A stretch of DNA of 64,000 nucleotides from Qipengyuania qiaonensis (lineage in GTDB: Bacteria; Pseudomonadota; Alphaproteobacteria; Sphingomonadales; Sphingomonadaceae), in assembly GCF_019711515.1 (NCBI RefSeq), contig NZ_JAIGNO010000004.1, positions 186,001 through 250,000 on the forward strand. Direction: 5' to 3'. The notes under the pieces are model-generated. The model had not been told where the DNA came from. It ran no database searches and saw only the letters and a program-made list of their open reading frames with translations. The translations under genes and the position numbers were made by a program. Positions 3,783 through 30,533 of the stretch are shown here, piece after piece; position 1 is the stretch's first letter, and each line of letters begins with the position of its first letter.

Positions 3783-4780
3783 TGAATACGAATAGCGGCA
3801 TTGCACTTGTCGATCTGGACGAGGATGGCGTCGACCGCGCTTTCCGCGCCGACGTCCTCAAGGGATTGCGCCAGCGGCAGAAGGCCGTTCCCGCGCGCTG
3901 GTTTTATGACGAAGAAGGTTCGCGCCTGTTCGAGCGGATCACGCAGCTCGACGAGTACTATCCCACCCGTGCCGAAACCGAGATCCTGGAAGCGAGGAGC
4001 GACGCGTTTGCGGAACTGGTCGGGCCGGGAAGGGCGGTGGTCGAATTCGGCTCGGGCAGTTCGGTCAAGACTCCGCTGCTGCTTAAAGCGATCGACCCGG
4101 CCGCTTACGTTCCACTCGACATATCGGGCGATTTCCTCCGCATGAGCGCGGCCGCGCTAGCCAAGAATTTTCCCGATCTTCCGGTATATCCGGTAGAGGC
4201 CGATTTCATGCGCCGGGTCGGCCTGCCTCAAGAAGTCGAACCATTGAAGAAGCTGGGCTTTTTCCCTGGGTCGACAATCGGCAACATGGTTCCGCGTACT
4301 GCCGTAGACCTGCTGCGCTCGATGCGCGCGACGCTTGGCGCGGATGACGGCGAGAGCCCGCTGCTGCTGATCGGCATGGATATGGTCAAGGATCACCGGG
4401 TGCTGCAGGCTGCCTACGCCGATGCCGAAGGTGTGACGGGGGCGTTCAACATGAACCTCGTGGCGCGGATCAATCGTGAACTTGGCGGAACGATTCCGGC
4501 TGAATCGCTGGAACACAAGGCAATCTGGAACGACAAACTCGCCCGGGTAGAGATGCATCTTGTCGCCACGCGCGACATTGCCTTTGCCGTGTCCGGAGAA
4601 GAATTCTCAATGCGGTCGGGCGAGACTATCCATACCGAAAACAGCCACAAATTCACTCGTCGAAGCGCCAACCTGCTATTGCTTGCCGGCGGCTGGACAC
4701 CTGTGAAGAGATGGCTCGATCATGAGAAACGGTTCTCGGTTATTCTTGCCCGCGCTACGGAGCAGCGTGACGCGCCGTGA
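3782..4780 (+). CDS. egtD: L-histidine N-alpha-methyltransferase EgtD
   Basis: Trimethylates histidine to hercynine with S-adenosylmethionine, the first step of ergothioneine synthesis. The 332-residue length is typical. Recognisable segments are YYPTRAETEIL at 60-70 and the SAM-binding VEFGSGSSVKTPLLL around 88-101. The C-terminal region includes ENSHKF, a conserved stretch in this family. It begins on the last base of the egtB stop codon, so the two proteins are made together. No egtA, egtC or egtE is visible nearby. Confidence 0.96.
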   Translation: MNTNSGIALVDLDEDGVDRAFRADVLKGLRQRQKAVPARWFYDEEGSRLFERITQLDEYYPTRAETEILEARSDAFAELVGPGRAVVEFGSGSSVKTPLLLKAIDPAAYVPLDISGDFLRMSAAALAKNFPDLPVYPVEADFMRRVGLPQEVEPLKKLGFFPGSTIGNMVPRTAVDLLRSMRATLGADDGESPLLLIGMDMVKDHRVLQAAYADAEGVTGAFNMNLVARINRELGGTIPAESLEHKAIWNDKLARVEMHLVATRDIAFAVSGEEFSMRSGETIHTENSHKFTRRSANLLLLAGGWTPVKRWLDHEKRFSVILARATEQRDAP

Positions 4781-4822
4781 TTGGCCGCTCTATTCATGGA
4801 CGCGTCACGGCCGTGTTCCTAT

Positions 4823-5491
4823 ATGGATGACATGGAATTAGAGCCCGTCTTCAGCGCCATAGCCGATACATTGCGTGCCATTCCGCGCTCCGAGCTGCTG
4901 ATCGCGGCCGTTGCGGCAATGGTCCTTGGATGGTTCGGTGCGATGATCGCCAAACGTTCCATGCTCGGTGGTTGGTTGCGCATGGTGAGTTCGCTGGCGC
5001 TCGGGTTGATTCTGCTGACCGTCGTGCTGCAGCTCTCCCGTTTCGATCCTCGCTTCGATGTGGCAGTCCCGCAGATCGGCTTGCCCGAACAGGTCGTGGC
5101 GGGTGGTGAGACGCGCATTCCGCTCTCGGCCGATGGCCATTTCTGGGTTCGCGCCGAAGTCAACGGCGCGCCCGGAAACTTCATGATCGATACCGGCGCC
5201 ACTCTGACCGCGATTTCAGCCCCGCTGGCGCAGCGGGCCGGGCTCGAGCCGCGGCGGGGCGGAATCCCGATCATGCTGGGTACCGCCAACGGCACCGTAC
5301 AAGCCCATGTCGCGACTATCGACAGCCTCACCTTCGGAAATGTCAGTGCCAGCGGCACGGATGCTGCGATCGCTGAGAATTTTGGCGACTTCAACGTCAT
5401 CGGCATGAACGTGCTTGCTCGCCTTGGTTCGTGGCGGGTTGAGGACAACACTTTGATCCTCGTTCCCCGCGCCGAGGATATGATTTCGTAA
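4823..5491 (+). CDS. Membrane-anchored retropepsin-like aspartic protease (TIGR02281 type)
   Basis: A 222-residue protein with two predicted membrane segments (about 25-43 and 55-71), followed by a single retropepsin-type domain with the active-site motif MIDTGAT at 121-127 and a second conserved patch IGMNVLARLGSW. Such proteins carry one Asp per chain and work as dimers. The protease domain is expected in the periplasm. Targets in Alphaproteobacteria are unknown. The ATG at 4823 is chosen because the membrane segments follow directly. In-frame alternatives exist at 4781 (TTG) and 4796, and none has a good ribosome site. It lies 42 bases after egtD. Confidence 0.8.
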   Translation: MDDMELEPVFSAIADTLRAIPRSELLIAAVAAMVLGWFGAMIAKRSMLGGWLRMVSSLALGLILLTVVLQLSRFDPRFDVAVPQIGLPEQVVAGGETRIPLSADGHFWVRAEVNGAPGNFMIDTGATLTAISAPLAQRAGLEPRRGGIPIMLGTANGTVQAHVATIDSLTFGNVSASGTDAAIAENFGDFNVIGMNVLARLGSWRVEDNTLILVPRAEDMIS

Positions 5492-5537
5492 AATCCGGCG
5501 TTTGACCAAGCGCGCCTAGCCGCTAGGGCTGGATGTG

Positions 5538-6281
5538 ATGGACGGTACGACCCTGCTCCCCGCCCCGCTGCCGCTTGGCGATCTGCTTGCGCAGAAACCC
5601 ATCGCGCTGTTTCTCGACTTCGACGGCACATTGATAGAAATCGCGCCACGTCCGGGCGATATCCACGTTCCGGACGGACTGCCGGAACACCTGCAAATAT
5701 TGGGCGACCGGCTCGGCGGCAGACTTGCACTGGTCAGCGGCCGAGCGCTGGACGACCTGGCGGCGCATTTGGGAGAGGTCGGGATTTGCCGTGCAGGATC
5801 GCACGGTGCCTCGCGCTTGCTCGGCGATGGAACGCGTCTTGGCGAAGAACCGCGTGGGCTGGCCGACGGGGCGATCGCCGAACTCCGGGCATACGCCGAA
5901 GAGAATGGTCTTTTTTACGAGGCCAAGGCCCATGGCGGCGCGTTGCATTTTCGGGGGCAGCCTGAAAAGCAGGAAGCTGCGCTGGCCTTTGCCAGTGATT
6001 TCGCCGGGTCGCGTGGCCTCAGCGTCACCAAAGGCAAAGGGGTGGTCGAACTTGTCCAGCCGGGTGCGACCAAAGCTGGCGCGGTCGAAGCCTTCATGAA
6101 AATGTCGCCATTTGCCGGTGCCATGCCCGTTTTCGTGGGCGACGACGTAACCGATGAGGATGGCTTTGCCGGCGCCGAAAAATACGGCGGTTTCGGCATT
6201 GCCGTGGGCGAGCGCCCCAGCCAGCGGGCACGATACCACCTCGACAACGTTGCTGCAGTGCACCATTGGTTGGAGATATGA
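5538..6281 (+). CDS. otsB: Trehalose-6-phosphate phosphatase OtsB
   Basis: Dephosphorylates trehalose 6-phosphate to trehalose in the cytosol. The protein is about 247 residues and is a HAD-superfamily enzyme with the nucleophile motif FLDFDGTL at 25-32 and a late acidic motif FVGDDVTDEDGF that binds magnesium. The ATG at 5538 has an in-frame GTG just before it (5535); AGGGCTGGA lies upstream. Its stop overlaps the next start by one base (TGATG). otsA, which makes the substrate, follows one gene later, so otsB-GH15-otsA form one trehalose operon. Confidence 0.95.
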   Translation: MDGTTLLPAPLPLGDLLAQKPIALFLDFDGTLIEIAPRPGDIHVPDGLPEHLQILGDRLGGRLALVSGRALDDLAAHLGEVGICRAGSHGASRLLGDGTRLGEEPRGLADGAIAELRAYAEENGLFYEAKAHGGALHFRGQPEKQEAALAFASDFAGSRGLSVTKGKGVVELVQPGATKAGAVEAFMKMSPFAGAMPVFVGDDVTDEDGFAGAEKYGGFGIAVGERPSQRARYHLDNVAAVHHWLEI

Positions 6282-15570: not shown

Positions 15571-16797
15571 ATGTCGACAGTCCTCGTGATCGGTGCCGGC
15601 GGCGTCAGCTCGGTCTGCGTCCACAAGATGGCGATGAACCCCGATATCTTTTCGGAAATCCATCTTGCGAGCCGGACGAAGAGCAAGTGCGATGCGATCG
15701 CCGCTTCGGTGAAAGAACGCACGGGCGTGGATGTGAGCACCTACGGGATCGACGCCGAGGAAGTCCCGGCGATGGTCAATCTGATCCGCAAGCTGGGTCC
15801 GGAACTGGTCGTCAATCTGGCCCTGCCCTATCAGGACCTGCCGATCATGGATGCCTGTCTCGAAGCGGGTGTCGCCTATCTCGACACCGCGAATTACGAG
15901 CCCAAGGACGAAGCCAAGTTCGAATATCACTGGCAATGGGCGTATCATGATCGCTTCAAGGAAGCCGGCCTGATGGCGCTGCTGGGGTCGGGCTTCGATC
16001 CGGGCGTGACCAGCGTATTCACCATGTGGCTCAAGAAGCACAAGCTCAAGACCATCCGCCAGCTCGACATTCTCGATTGCAATGGCGGCTATCACGGCCA
16101 GGCCTTCGCCACGAATTTCAACCCGGAAATCAACATCCGCGAAGTGACCGCGCCCGCGCGTCACTGGGAAAACGGCCAGTTCGTCGAGACCCCGGCAATG
16201 GCCAAGCGTGTCGAATTCGACTTCGAGGAAGTCGGGCCGAAGAACATGTACATGATGTATCACGAGGAACTGGAAAGCCTCGCCAAGTTCAACCCGGAAA
16301 TGGAGCGCGCGCGCTTCTGGATGACCTTCGGCGACGAGTACATCAAGCACCTGACCGTGCTACAGAATGTCGGCATGACGCGGATCGATCCGATCAAGTA
16401 CAAGGGTCAGGAAATCATTCCGCTGCAGTTCCTCGCCGCCGTGCTGCCCAAGCCCGAAACGCTGGGCGAAACGACCAAGGGCAACACCAATATCGGCGTG
16501 ATCGCGACCGGCGAAGCGCTCGACGGCCCAAATGGTGAAAAGGGGGGCGAGAAGACGTTCTACATCAACAACATCTGCTCGCACGAGGCGGCATACGAGG
16601 AGACCGGCAACCAGGCGGTTTCCTATACCACCGGCGTTCCCGCGATGATCGGTTCCGCCATGATGGTGACCGGCAAGTGGAGCGGAGACGGTGTGTTCAA
16701 CATGGAAGAGATGGACCCCGATCCCTTCATGGACATGTTGAACGGACATGGCCTGCCGTGGCAGGTGAAGGAACTGGACGGGCCGGTGGATTTCTGA
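15571..16797 (+). CDS. Carboxynorspermidine/carboxyspermidine dehydrogenase (saccharopine dehydrogenase family)
   Basis: A 408-residue NAD(P)-dependent enzyme that condenses aspartate semialdehyde with a diamine to give carboxyspermidine or carboxynorspermidine. The N-terminal Rossmann motif is VLVIGAGGVSS at 4-14, and the rest follows the LYS1-like saccharopine dehydrogenase family. GGAG lies about ten bases before ATG 15571. The family also contains saccharopine dehydrogenases of lysine metabolism. The decarboxylase NspC three genes on decides for the polyamine role. Ten bases after its stop begins the inverted-repeat unit with the GxxExxY gene, which splits the polyamine cluster. Confidence 0.92.
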   Translation: MSTVLVIGAGGVSSVCVHKMAMNPDIFSEIHLASRTKSKCDAIAASVKERTGVDVSTYGIDAEEVPAMVNLIRKLGPELVVNLALPYQDLPIMDACLEAGVAYLDTANYEPKDEAKFEYHWQWAYHDRFKEAGLMALLGSGFDPGVTSVFTMWLKKHKLKTIRQLDILDCNGGYHGQAFATNFNPEINIREVTAPARHWENGQFVETPAMAKRVEFDFEEVGPKNMYMMYHEELESLAKFNPEMERARFWMTFGDEYIKHLTVLQNVGMTRIDPIKYKGQEIIPLQFLAAVLPKPETLGETTKGNTNIGVIATGEALDGPNGEKGGEKTFYINNICSHEAAYEETGNQAVSYTTGVPAMIGSAMMVTGKWSGDGVFNMEEMDPDPFMDMLNGHGLPWQVKELDGPVDF

Positions 16798-16806
16798 TCG
16801 CTCTTT

Positions 16807-17260
16807 GATTCACACGAAGACAAGAAGATGCCCCGCGAAGACGATCTTGAGCACCTAGCCAGCCGCGTGATCGACTGCGGATACCATCTTCATCGTGATC
16901 TTGGACCTGGACTTCTCGAGACCGCTTACGAGGCATTGATGGCGGAAATGCTTCGTCGAGCTGGGTTCGGCGTCGAACGGCAAGTAGCAGTTCCCCTCCG
17001 CTATCAGGATGTGGTTGTAGACAACGCGTTCAAGATCGAACTGCTCGTGGAGGGGCGCCTTGTCGTCGAGTTGAAATCGGTCGAAAAACTGATCCCGGTA
17101 CATGGAAAACAGGTTCTCACCTATCTGCGGTTGATGAACCTGCCGCTGGGGCTTCTCATGAATTTCGGACAGGGCACTTTCAAGGAGGGCCTGCGGCGCA
17201 TCGCCAACAATTATCGCGGCGAGATCCCGAAGCGATGACATCTTCGTGTCTTCGTGTGAG
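16807..17260. mobile_element. GxxExxY unit: gene enclosed by terminal inverted repeats
   Basis: A 24-base arm at 16807-16830 and an opposite arm at 17239-17260 form near-perfect inverted repeats. Over the 21 bases 16810-16830 and 17239-17259 there is one mismatch, with consensus TCACACGAAGACACGAAGATG. The left arm ends in the ATG of the enclosed gene, and the right arm starts directly after its TGA, so the unit is just gene plus arms. It lies between two polyamine-cluster genes with almost no other DNA. A second pair of the same arms, without a gene, is at 30145-30361. No transposase or target-site duplication is evident, so mobility is inference. Confidence 0.5.
16828..17238 (+). CDS. GxxExxY protein (PD-(D/E)XK nuclease-like family)
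   Basis: A 136-residue protein with the family's naming motif in GPGLLETAYEALM and the nuclease-like core FKIELLVEGRLVVELKSVEKL. In that core the usual Asp before LLV is Glu here, and ELK supplies the other acidic and lysine residues. Function is unknown across bacteria. The length is normal and the frame intact. The start codon is the end of the left inverted repeat, with AAGAAG in the repeat serving as a possible ribosome site. It interrupts the run of polyamine genes, consistent with later insertion. Confidence 0.9.
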   Translation: MPREDDLEHLASRVIDCGYHLHRDLGPGLLETAYEALMAEMLRRAGFGVERQVAVPLRYQDVVVDNAFKIELLVEGRLVVELKSVEKLIPVHGKQVLTYLRLMNLPLGLLMNFGQGTFKEGLRRIANNYRGEIPKR

Positions 17261-17261
17261 G

Positions 17262-18233
17262 ATGAAACATGCTCTGACCGGCTATCTTGCAGCGGCGCTC
17301 GTCCTATCAGGCTGCTCTTCTGCGCCGGCGCCCGAAGATGCGCCGCGCGCCGAGGTGAATGGCGACTGGGCTCAGGTTCCCGACGGCACTGCTTGGGGCG
17401 AAGTGAGTGCGGTCGATACCGACAGTCATGGCCACATCTTCGTGCTTCAGCGTGCTGGCCGTGTGTGGGAAGAACCGTTTCCGTCCGACCCGATCGCCGA
17501 GCCAGTGGTGTTCATGTTTGCCCGCGACGGCAAGCTGCTTGCCAGCTGGGGTGCGGGCGAAACGGTCATGCCACACGGACTCTCGGTCGACGAGGCGGAC
17601 AAGGTCTGGATTACCGACGTACAACGCGAACAAGTGCTGCGCTTCTCGCATGACGGCGAACGCGAGATGGCTATCGGGAAACGTGGCGGATCGGACGATC
17701 TTCCCGGCCATTTCGGCAGGCCAGCCGACATCGCATTCTCGGGCGACAAGGTATTCGTTGCCGATGGCTATGCGAACTCGCGCATCGCCGTGTTCGACAG
17801 GCAGGGAAATTTCGTCCGCCAATGGGGCCGCGAAGGCTCCGGTGCTGAAGGGCTTGCCATTCCGCACTCGGTGGCGGTGAACAACGGCAAGGTGTATGTC
17901 GCCGACCGCGAAAACGCGCGGATCAAGATATTCGGCGAGGATGGCGAACTTATCGACACCTTCGATACGCCCGGCCATCCCTATGCCGTCAAGCCGCTGC
18001 GAAATGGCTATTTCCTCTCGGTCGAGGGTCGCGATAGGGCCGACCGGGCGGGGGCGATCATTCGCGTGTGGCGTCCCGGCGGGACGATCGAACGCGTGCT
18101 CGACGCGCGTGGCGAAGGTCCGACCAAGGGGCATGACCTTGCGATCGGCGCGGACGGCACAATCTATCTTGCCGACCCCGAAGGTAGCCGCGTGCTGACC
18201 TTCGAACTGGCCCAGAATACGGAAGACGAATAA
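17262..18233 (+). CDS. NHL-repeat beta-propeller lipoprotein
   Basis: A 323-residue exported lipoprotein: MKHALTGYLAAALVLSGCSS is a signal peptide with lipobox LSGC, so it is anchored to a membrane by Cys17. The rest is a series of NHL-type blades with recurrent VFVADGYANSRIAVFD, VYVADRENARIKIF and IYLADPEGSRVLTF segments. Related propellers occur in peptidyl-alpha-hydroxyglycine lyases, but nothing here proves that activity. The ATG at 17262 is two bases after the right inverted repeat. Its TAA overlaps the nspC start (TAATG), so the two are translated together; why a lipoprotein is tied to polyamine synthesis is unclear. Confidence 0.85.
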   Translation: MKHALTGYLAAALVLSGCSSAPAPEDAPRAEVNGDWAQVPDGTAWGEVSAVDTDSHGHIFVLQRAGRVWEEPFPSDPIAEPVVFMFARDGKLLASWGAGETVMPHGLSVDEADKVWITDVQREQVLRFSHDGEREMAIGKRGGSDDLPGHFGRPADIAFSGDKVFVADGYANSRIAVFDRQGNFVRQWGREGSGAEGLAIPHSVAVNNGKVYVADRENARIKIFGEDGELIDTFDTPGHPYAVKPLRNGYFLSVEGRDRADRAGAIIRVWRPGGTIERVLDARGEGPTKGHDLAIGADGTIYLADPEGSRVLTFELAQNTEDE

Positions 18234-19411
18234 TGGAAACCAAAGCCGGCGATCCCGGAGCCTTTGCGCAGTTCGGCCTCGACCGCGTATCCTCGCCCGC
18301 CTTTGTGGTGGATGCGGCGAAGCTGCGCGCCAATTGCCAGGTGCTGGCGGATATCCGCGACGAGGCGGACATCAAGGTGCTCGCCGCGCTCAAGGCCTTC
18401 TCCATGTGGTCGACGGCGCCGATCATCGGCGAGTATCTCGACGGGGTATGCACCTCCGGCCTGTGGGAAGCGCGGCTCGCGAGCGAATTCTACGATGGCG
18501 AGATCGCGACCTACTCCGCGGCGTACAAGCCGGAAGAACTGGAAGAGGTTTGCCGCCTGTCCGACCACGTGATCTTCAACTCGCCCGGCCAGTTGGAACG
18601 CGCCACGTTGATCCTCGAACAGGCGAGGGCGGCGGGGCAGGATTTCGACGTCGGGCTGCGTATCAATCCGATGCATGCCACGGGCGAGGTGCCGCGTTAC
18701 GATCCGTCGAGCCCCGGCAGCCGGCTCGGCTTTCCGCTCGATCAGCTGACGCCCGAGATCATGGCGCAGGTCGACGGAATCCATTTCCACAATCTGTGCG
18801 AACAGGATTTCGAGCCGCTCCATGCGACATGGGACAAGGTGTTCGACGCGATCGAGCCGTGGTTCGGGCAGCTCAAATGGATCAATATGGGCGGCGGCCA
18901 CCACATCACCCGCGCCGATTATCAGCGCGAGGAGCTGGTCGAGTTCCTGCGCGATGCCAAGGAAGATACGGGCGCGGAAATCTATCTCGAGCCGGGCGAG
19001 GCGGTGGCACTCGATGCGGGCATTCTCGTCGGGACGATACTCGATACGGGCTTCAACGAACTGCCCGTGGCGGTGGCGGACATTTCGGCGACCTGCCACA
19101 TGCCCGACGTGATCGAAGCGCCCTATCGCCCCGCCATGCTCGGCGAGAGTGTCGACCACGAGACGCCGGAAGTGCGCATCGGCGGCCCGTCCTGCCTCGC
19201 CGGCGACGTGATCGGCGATTATCGGATTCCCGGCGGCGCGGAGGTCGGCAAGCGTTTCGCCTTTCTCGACCAGGCGCATTATTCGATGGTCAAGACGAAC
19301 ACCTTCAACGGCGTCCAGCTTCCCGCGATCTACCTCTGGGACAGCGAAACCGACCAGCTCGAGCTGGTGAAGGAGTTCGGTTACGAGACCTTCCGCGACC
19401 GGTTGAGCTGA
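18233..19411 (+). CDS. nspC: Carboxynorspermidine/carboxyspermidine decarboxylase
   Basis: A PLP enzyme of the alanine-racemase fold (fold III) that decarboxylates carboxyspermidine or carboxynorspermidine to the polyamine. The 392-residue length is typical. The PLP lysine is Lys54 in VLAALKAFSMWS; HNLCEQ, the glycine-rich NMGGGHHI and the C-terminal active-site region CHMPD and GPSCLAGD also match. It starts on the last base of the lipoprotein stop. With the dehydrogenase at 15571 and ornithine decarboxylase at 21367 it completes a route from ornithine to spermidine. Its last 31 bases overlap the end of the opposite-strand GGDEF gene. Confidence 0.95.
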   Translation: METKAGDPGAFAQFGLDRVSSPAFVVDAAKLRANCQVLADIRDEADIKVLAALKAFSMWSTAPIIGEYLDGVCTSGLWEARLASEFYDGEIATYSAAYKPEELEEVCRLSDHVIFNSPGQLERATLILEQARAAGQDFDVGLRINPMHATGEVPRYDPSSPGSRLGFPLDQLTPEIMAQVDGIHFHNLCEQDFEPLHATWDKVFDAIEPWFGQLKWINMGGGHHITRADYQREELVEFLRDAKEDTGAEIYLEPGEAVALDAGILVGTILDTGFNELPVAVADISATCHMPDVIEAPYRPAMLGESVDHETPEVRIGGPSCLAGDVIGDYRIPGGAEVGKRFAFLDQAHYSMVKTNTFNGVQLPAIYLWDSETDQLELVKEFGYETFRDRLS

Positions 19412-30140: not shown

Positions 30141-30144
30141 GATT

Positions 30145-30361
30145 CGCGCAGAGATCGCGGAGGAGCGGAAATCGCCGAGAACGAAAGAGAAAGGTTGATT
30201 CACACAAAGACACGAAGATGTTTTGCGCTGAGCGGCGAAGACGCTCACACAGCTTACGTCGTTTCCACATAAGGCGCGGCTGTGCCGCGAGAGCAATATC
30301 TTCGTGTCTTTGTGTGAGACAATCCCCTCCGCGATTTTCGCCTTTCCGCGGCCTCTGCGCG
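30145..30361. repeat. 217-base palindromic element sharing GxxExxY terminal repeats
   Basis: The left arm (30145-30219) and right arm (30298-30361) are inverted repeats. The innermost 20 bases, TCACACAAAGACACGAAGAT, are identical on both sides and match the arms of the GxxExxY unit at 16807-17260 except for one or two bases. The outer parts (CGCGCAGAG then GCGGA-rich sequence) also pair with mismatches. The 78 bases between contain no gene, only a CGCGGC/GCCGCG hairpin. It begins four bases after dprA stops. It looks like a non-autonomous or decayed relative of that unit. Confidence 0.65.
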
Positions 30362-30533
30362 AAACAATTGTGTCGCTCTAAATAATAAAGGTTTATCGCT
30401 CCATTATATCTGGGTCGAAATTAGACCTGAATCAGGCAAACTTCTGCTTGACGCAAATTGCGCCGTGATACCATCCTTATAAATATCCAAAGGAAAGACG
30501 CATTGTGACAAATGGGTATTACAGGGGACACCA

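Follow-up and report, generated by a model that had tools for sequence, protein, structure and literature searches.

GxxExxY nuclease-family genes packaged between inverted tandem-octamer arms suggest a mobile element of a little-studied kind

Inverted arms surround most of the GxxExxY genes sampled here, and arms of the same type also occur as short pairs without the gene, a pattern suggestive of a mobile element that has received little study. The copy in the window (the whole 64-kb stretch of DNA that was analysed) is packed exactly between inverted repeats, as the initial annotation had proposed. The two arms are 21 nt each and match at 20 of 21 positions, the left arm closes with the ATG at 16828-16830, the TGA at 17236-17238 directly abuts the right arm, and GxxExxY is the sole ORF filling the element (Table 1). 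The same annotation had placed the element between two polyamine genes. This holds on the left, where the neighbour is synthase-like (NF043000, E 1.4e-111, yet under the model's curated cut-off), but on the right the NHL-repeat gene separates the element from the decarboxylase homologue (TIGR01047, E 6.4e-112, also under the curated cut-off).

Table 1. Features of the window and recurrent insertion sites of the element.
Feature	Coordinates	Strand	Description
Carboxynorspermidine synthase homologue	15571..16797	+	Upstream neighbour; left border of insertion site A
Left arm TCACACGAAGACAAGAAGATG	16810..16830	+	Tandem CACGAAG-type octamers; final three bases are the start codon
GxxExxY gene	16828..17238	+	136 aa; PD-(D/E)XK nuclease fold
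Right arm CATCTTCGTGTCTTCGTGTGA	17239..17259	+	Left arm inverted; starts directly after the stop codon
NHL-repeat (beta-propeller) gene	17262..18233	+	Directly 3' of the element; variable passenger of site A within the genus
Carboxynorspermidine decarboxylase homologue	18233..19411	+	Right border of site A
Outer inverted pair, different arm type TTCGCGCAGAG...	30143..30363	.	37 nt, 81% complementary; encloses the short element (nested shells)
Gene-less short element, same arm type as the GxxExxY element	30195..30322	.	28-nt arms, 89% complementary, 72 nt between
Site A			Carboxynorspermidine synthase / decarboxylase gap; recurrent intergenic site
Site B			fabD / fabG gap; recurrent intergenic site
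Site C			Oxoacid:ferredoxin oxidoreductase beta / YdjM gap; recurrent intergenic site

The window protein is a full member of the GxxExxY / PDDEXK_3 family, scoring 120.4 bits against PF13366 (E 6.8e-35; curated cut-off 22) and 120.5 bits against TIGR04256 (E 4.4e-35; curated cut-off 35). It has the fold and the E...D...ExK residues of the PD-(D/E)XK superfamily; across 82 sequences the catalytic-type residues E31, E81 and K83 are invariant and D71 is present in at least 90%. Purifying selection keeps the nuclease gene intact: dN lies well under dS, and 17 of the 21 genus loci are intact, the broken or partial ones being L010, L024/L031, L025/L030 and L029. When the window protein was compared with PADLOC-DB 2.0.0, a collection for anti-phage defence, no family was matched. 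GxxExxY genes are widespread and, to our knowledge, without an assigned role, and we know of no nuclease of the family with tested activity.

The initial annotation had made its case depend on whether such arms flank other GxxExxY genes, and they do. A genome scan across many phyla yielded 579 loci, the best 80 of which were taken; one had too little flank, and among the 79 testable loci an inverted pair exceeded the 99th percentile (12.5) of 3624 controls from the same loci at 62 and the control maximum at 55. The 17 of these 79 loci with no arms above the 99th-percentile threshold count against a mobile cassette. In a class sample drawn evenly and including gene fragments, 15 of 28 loci exceeded the 99th percentile. 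Within the genus and its order, 21 of 22 loci (the 21 genus loci with two split ones joined, plus L011 of the same order) have an inverted pair scoring at least 16.5; this set was scored without separate controls, and the control percentile of 12.5 came from a narrower search interval. The exception is L025/L030, whose arms look degenerate by eye. The arms are mostly tandem 8-mers, roughly CRCRRAG-N, with a best period of 8 in 30, 9 in 7 and 10 in 2 of 39 hand-picked GxxExxY arms. A general arm word was present in 37 of 40 gene-bearing genomes; its reversed controls were close to zero in most genomes and high in G145, and in G144 the word did not rise above its control. Three genomes, G150, G152 and G156, have the gene and gave no match to the arm motif, again a point against a mobile cassette.

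Some arms are part of larger structures. The GxxExxY gene of G123 (L174, 1469-2299) has five arms on each side, like concentric shells. At L100, L110 and L114 the inverted repeat extends past the left arm into the end of fabD and its stop codon and is matched beyond the right arm; judging from these three loci, the palindromes seem to grow outward.

Arm pairs without a gene were observed both in the window and elsewhere in its genome (G000). An 18-mer arm word, allowing up to 3 mismatches, matched 4 times in the 64 kb against 0.03 expected; two matches are the gene's arms, and the other two form a second inverted pair (30200-30317) that holds no gene. With up to 2 mismatches the word has 9 forward and 9 reverse occurrences in the whole genome (0 for the reversed control), which has 9 inward pairs, namely 8 short gene-less ones and the GxxExxY element of the window. 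A second GxxExxY copy in this genome, between fabD and fabG, is interrupted by an internal stop codon, and its arms belong to another octamer type. The gene-less short pairs are dispersed and located between genes, and they are also nested, as at L265, L273, L278 and L280. Short elements of G047 have almost identical arms around mostly dissimilar cores of ~75 nt. Over 11 short-element cores the mean similarity was 0.47 compared with 0.37 for shuffles, so the cores are not wholly unrelated, and they have short GC-rich hairpin words in common. Close arm pairs that face outward (reverse then forward, ~17-18 nt apart) were seen in G060 and at L188 and L200.

The interior of the sampled arm pairs is either a short non-coding stretch or a single GxxExxY gene, and rarely anything else. 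The loci collected here, a gene-enriched set, contain 162 inward pairs, 69 of which enclose GxxExxY and 93 of which do not, and their interior length is two-peaked: 62 of the 69 have 380-480 nt inside, while 87 of the 93 have less than 250 nt and 6 are longer. The arm word led to 60 loci, with both arms of one element counted in some cases; these comprised 30 short elements, 14 with the gene, 1 other and 15 without a partner in the stretch examined. L101 accounts for two of the 6 longer gene-less pairs, its arms flanking parts of a gene for type I specificity. At this locus (3891-5605) arms stand around type I restriction specificity (HsdS) domains that adjoin a GxxExxY gene, and they might aid domain shuffling.

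Gene and arms tend to occur in the same genomes. The GxxExxY gene was found in 16 of 118 relatives. Any arm match, the gene's own arms counted, was present in 14 of the 16 gene-bearing and 7 of the 102 gene-less relatives, and inward pairs away from the gene in 7 and 2, respectively (p 7e-6). In the class sample, at least 4 arm matches were found in 5 of 22 gene-bearing and 10 of 362 gene-less genomes (p 8e-4). These 10 genomes, together with G028 and G060, which have arm pairs and lack the gene, argue against a mobile cassette, as does the low copy number of the gene-bearing form in the genus (1 to 3 per genome, rarely multiplied). Short arms matched the gene arms of their own genome better than those of other species when arm intervals were set by homology match (permutation p 0.0024), compared with p 0.17 when the intervals did not cover the arms of two genes in G047; the test covered 31 short arms from 5 genomes, mostly G047 and G000. 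Arm similarity and protein similarity correlated (Spearman 0.46, p 4e-4), also for different sites and genomes (0.28, p 0.006), in a Mantel test that is weakened for L013 and L032 because earlier arm intervals were used. Y1_Tnp matches occurred in 21 of the 118 relatives, with G000 and G047 among the genomes that had them; there were no Y1 transposase matches in G005, G008, G028, G035, G038, G041 or G060, all of which hold short pairs.

Three intergenic sites are re-used across Sphingomonadales (sites A to C, Table 1), and at 40 of 40 loci, genus included, the element is co-directional with the flanking genes. For the best 80 of the 579 cross-phylum loci, mechanical ORF calls gave co-direction with the upstream gene at 50 of 72 and with the downstream gene at 55 of 74, against a background of 158 of 270; these calls are unreliable, and because they misread several fabD/fabG loci the orientation rests on the 40/40 count. 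Most insertions lie no more than about a dozen nt behind the stop codon of the upstream gene, and those at site B roughly 20 nt ahead of the following start codon; the exact point varies by several nt. Four site labels placed on the gene tree changed 11 times compared with 29.9 when shuffled, and site B, with 17 loci of the tree, required 2 label changes compared with 14.8. Site A has been used by two unrelated GxxExxY lineages. In AU tests the gene and flank trees rejected each other at site B (1.5e-8 and 8e-53) and at site A (0.0013 and 0.0006), while at site C the flank data rejected the gene tree and the gene data did not reject the flank tree (p 0.32). Since lineages are faithful to their sites yet the trees conflict, plain descent does not account for the pattern, which calls for replacement or for transfer into the same gap. 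Vertical inheritance may explain part of the history, given the result of the gene data at site C and the correlation of gene and fabD distances at site B (Spearman 0.61, p 0.0005). A mosaic element was seen at L018 and L028 (~1440-1890; G021 and G005), its left arm and most of its gene 96-100% identical, its 3' end ~80% and the coding flanks ~90%. The contig of L114 bears the label Arthrobacter, but its fabD and fabG are sphingomonad-like (63-71% identity), and this assembly is probably mislabelled.

The initial annotation had named one outcome that would speak against a mobile unit, namely that every relative has this gene with its repeats at this position; instead, site A is occupied in 8 of 58 genus genomes, and the gene and flank trees there conflict. 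The empty form that the initial annotation proposed to look for in relatives exists for a short element. In the gap beside a conserved gene adjoining L282, G008, G038 and G000 have short elements with differing arms and cores, and G024, which shares 95-96% identity with G008 in the flanks, has 17 nt there in place of an element. The comparison of G008 with G024 revealed neither a target-site duplication nor a clean excision, the junction differing over ~17 nt, which stands against a mobile cassette. For a gene-bearing copy, a clean empty site with near-identical flanks was not found; the gaps seen are short ones in the more distant species G004, G010, G025 and G026. The broader claim, that this is an unusual element spreading a nuclease-like gene, is supported by the recurrence of the arms, by the presence of the gene in 16 of 118 relatives and by the tree conflict, and spread by its own nuclease is proposed below.

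On balance, we find it somewhat more likely than not that the element is a mobile cassette in minimal form, its PD-(D/E)XK nuclease acting on the hairpin arms and spreading arm-only elements as well. The anatomy of the element and its recurrence were observed here, and the action of the nuclease is inferred. The putative cassette would comprise ~450 bp, with one GxxExxY gene bounded by inverted tandem-octamer arms, and would settle in operon gaps just behind the upstream stop codon, along the direction of transcription. Inserted in this way, GxxExxY would owe its expression to transcription by the host and to the arm, whose purine-rich sequence is a likely ribosome-binding site. The nuclease would recognise its own arms, probably when they are extruded as hairpins, and cut there; repair or joining of the cut would then move the gene cassette and, in trans, gene-less arm pairs. 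By analogy with rRNA intervening sequences, an RNA role of the arms as an RNase III stem may exist besides the nuclease action. For the action in trans, the analogy would be a RAYT serving REPINs, and a similar proposal exists for the ORF of rRNA intervening sequences. In REPIN-RAYT systems, enzyme genes are bounded by repeats that are also found elsewhere as short inverted pairs, and the RAYT enzyme is thought to serve these REPINs. Similarly, the genomes here mostly have 1-3 enzyme genes, bounded by repeats that recur as gene-less short inverted pairs dispersed besides the enzyme gene, 8 in G000 and many in G047. The enzyme, however, is a PD-(D/E)XK protein (PF13366) rather than a Y1 HUH transposase, and single arms are tandem octamers rather than palindromes.

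An alternative that we regard as unlikely is an element acting at the RNA level like an intervening sequence (IVS), in which the arms would pair in the transcript, RNase III would cut the stem and the host mRNAs would be released; the nuclease would be secondary, and movement would be rare and by other means such as recombination or reverse transcription. Passages of PMC4990558 describe a 23S rRNA IVS of the same plan in Coxiella, 428 nt long with one small ORF, tandem heptamers before the start codon and RNase III excision. The likeness covers the length of ~430-450 nt, the small ORF between inverted ends, the tandem repeats near the ORF start, the insertion along transcription and a mobility long held possible (PMC4990558, in part). 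The window arms pair in the predicted transcript fold (MFE -180.9, z -2.7), and the 40/40 co-direction is what such an element would show, although co-direction can also stem from selection for expression or harmlessness. S23-type genes here also carry inverted arms: in GxxExxY-bearing genomes (L201-L230) 19 of 30 S23 loci have arms above the 99th percentile of controls, with a 7-nt period in 16 of the 19, and these arms follow the GxxExxY plan with a different word. An RNA-level element fits poorly with gene-less short pairs dispersed and nested between genes, and with a nuclease gene under purifying selection and intact in 17 of 21 genus loci. Moreover, the IVS ORF is an S23 four-helix-bundle protein, whereas the element here encodes a PD-(D/E)XK nuclease, is located between protein genes and not in 23S rRNA, has a mostly 8-nt arm period and is accompanied by dispersed short pairs.

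It is quite improbable, in our judgement, that each lineage is instead fitted to one intergenic target in a homing-like manner, cutting empty alleles and being copied by repair, with the arms as by-products or repair tracts. There is precedent in I-Ssp6803I, a PD-(D/E)XK homing enzyme, and the element resembles a homing endonuclease cassette as a small nuclease gene with a site-tied lineage and transfer between species into the same site; the few label changes at site B, the conflict of gene with flank trees and the insertion close behind the upstream stop codon all agree with it. Homing leaves the inverted arms and the dispersed gene-less pairs unexplained, and it is at odds with an inexact insertion point that shifts by several nt and with two unrelated lineages at site A. 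We hold it highly doubtful that an unrelated enzyme moves the arms as a MITE or REP family, with GxxExxY as cargo captured once or inserting into hairpins. Gene-less arms do outnumber gene-bearing ones in several genomes, gene-less genomes with pairs occur and in L101 arms enclose a type I specificity domain; insertion sequences and MITEs likewise have terminal inverted repeats, non-coding relatives of short length, nested copies and insertions in operons. The long interiors, however, are mostly GxxExxY (69 pairs, against 6 of more than 250 nt without it, in the gene-enriched sample), gene presence predicts short pairs, and arm similarity correlates with protein similarity as given above. The element also differs from insertion sequences and MITEs in having no transposase and in arms made of tandem short-period repeats, and no target-site duplication is visible at the G008/G024 junction.

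In the literature searched, which did not extend to subscription papers and preprints, neither a description of such a GxxExxY arm element nor any of six arm words was found. PMC8934634 mentions GxxExxY in passing, the name also appears in PMC12085832, and PF13366 is named in PMC9756366. A term search of the main text of a review of prokaryotic MITEs (PMC10969869) found neither 'nuclease' nor 'tandem repeat'.

Returning to the mobile cassette, we tentatively suggest that GxxExxY proteins could be the mobilising enzymes of phylum-spanning minimal elements, each with a lone hairpin nuclease and no transposase, and that S23 genes with heptamer arms, including the rRNA IVSs, could form a sister class. 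If this is true, a large orphan family gains a function and one common class of hairpin repeats in bacteria gains a candidate maker. We know of no precedent for transposition that relies on a solo PD-(D/E)XK nuclease, and a plan shared with S23 genes would bring the nature of rRNA intervening sequences within reach of simple tests.
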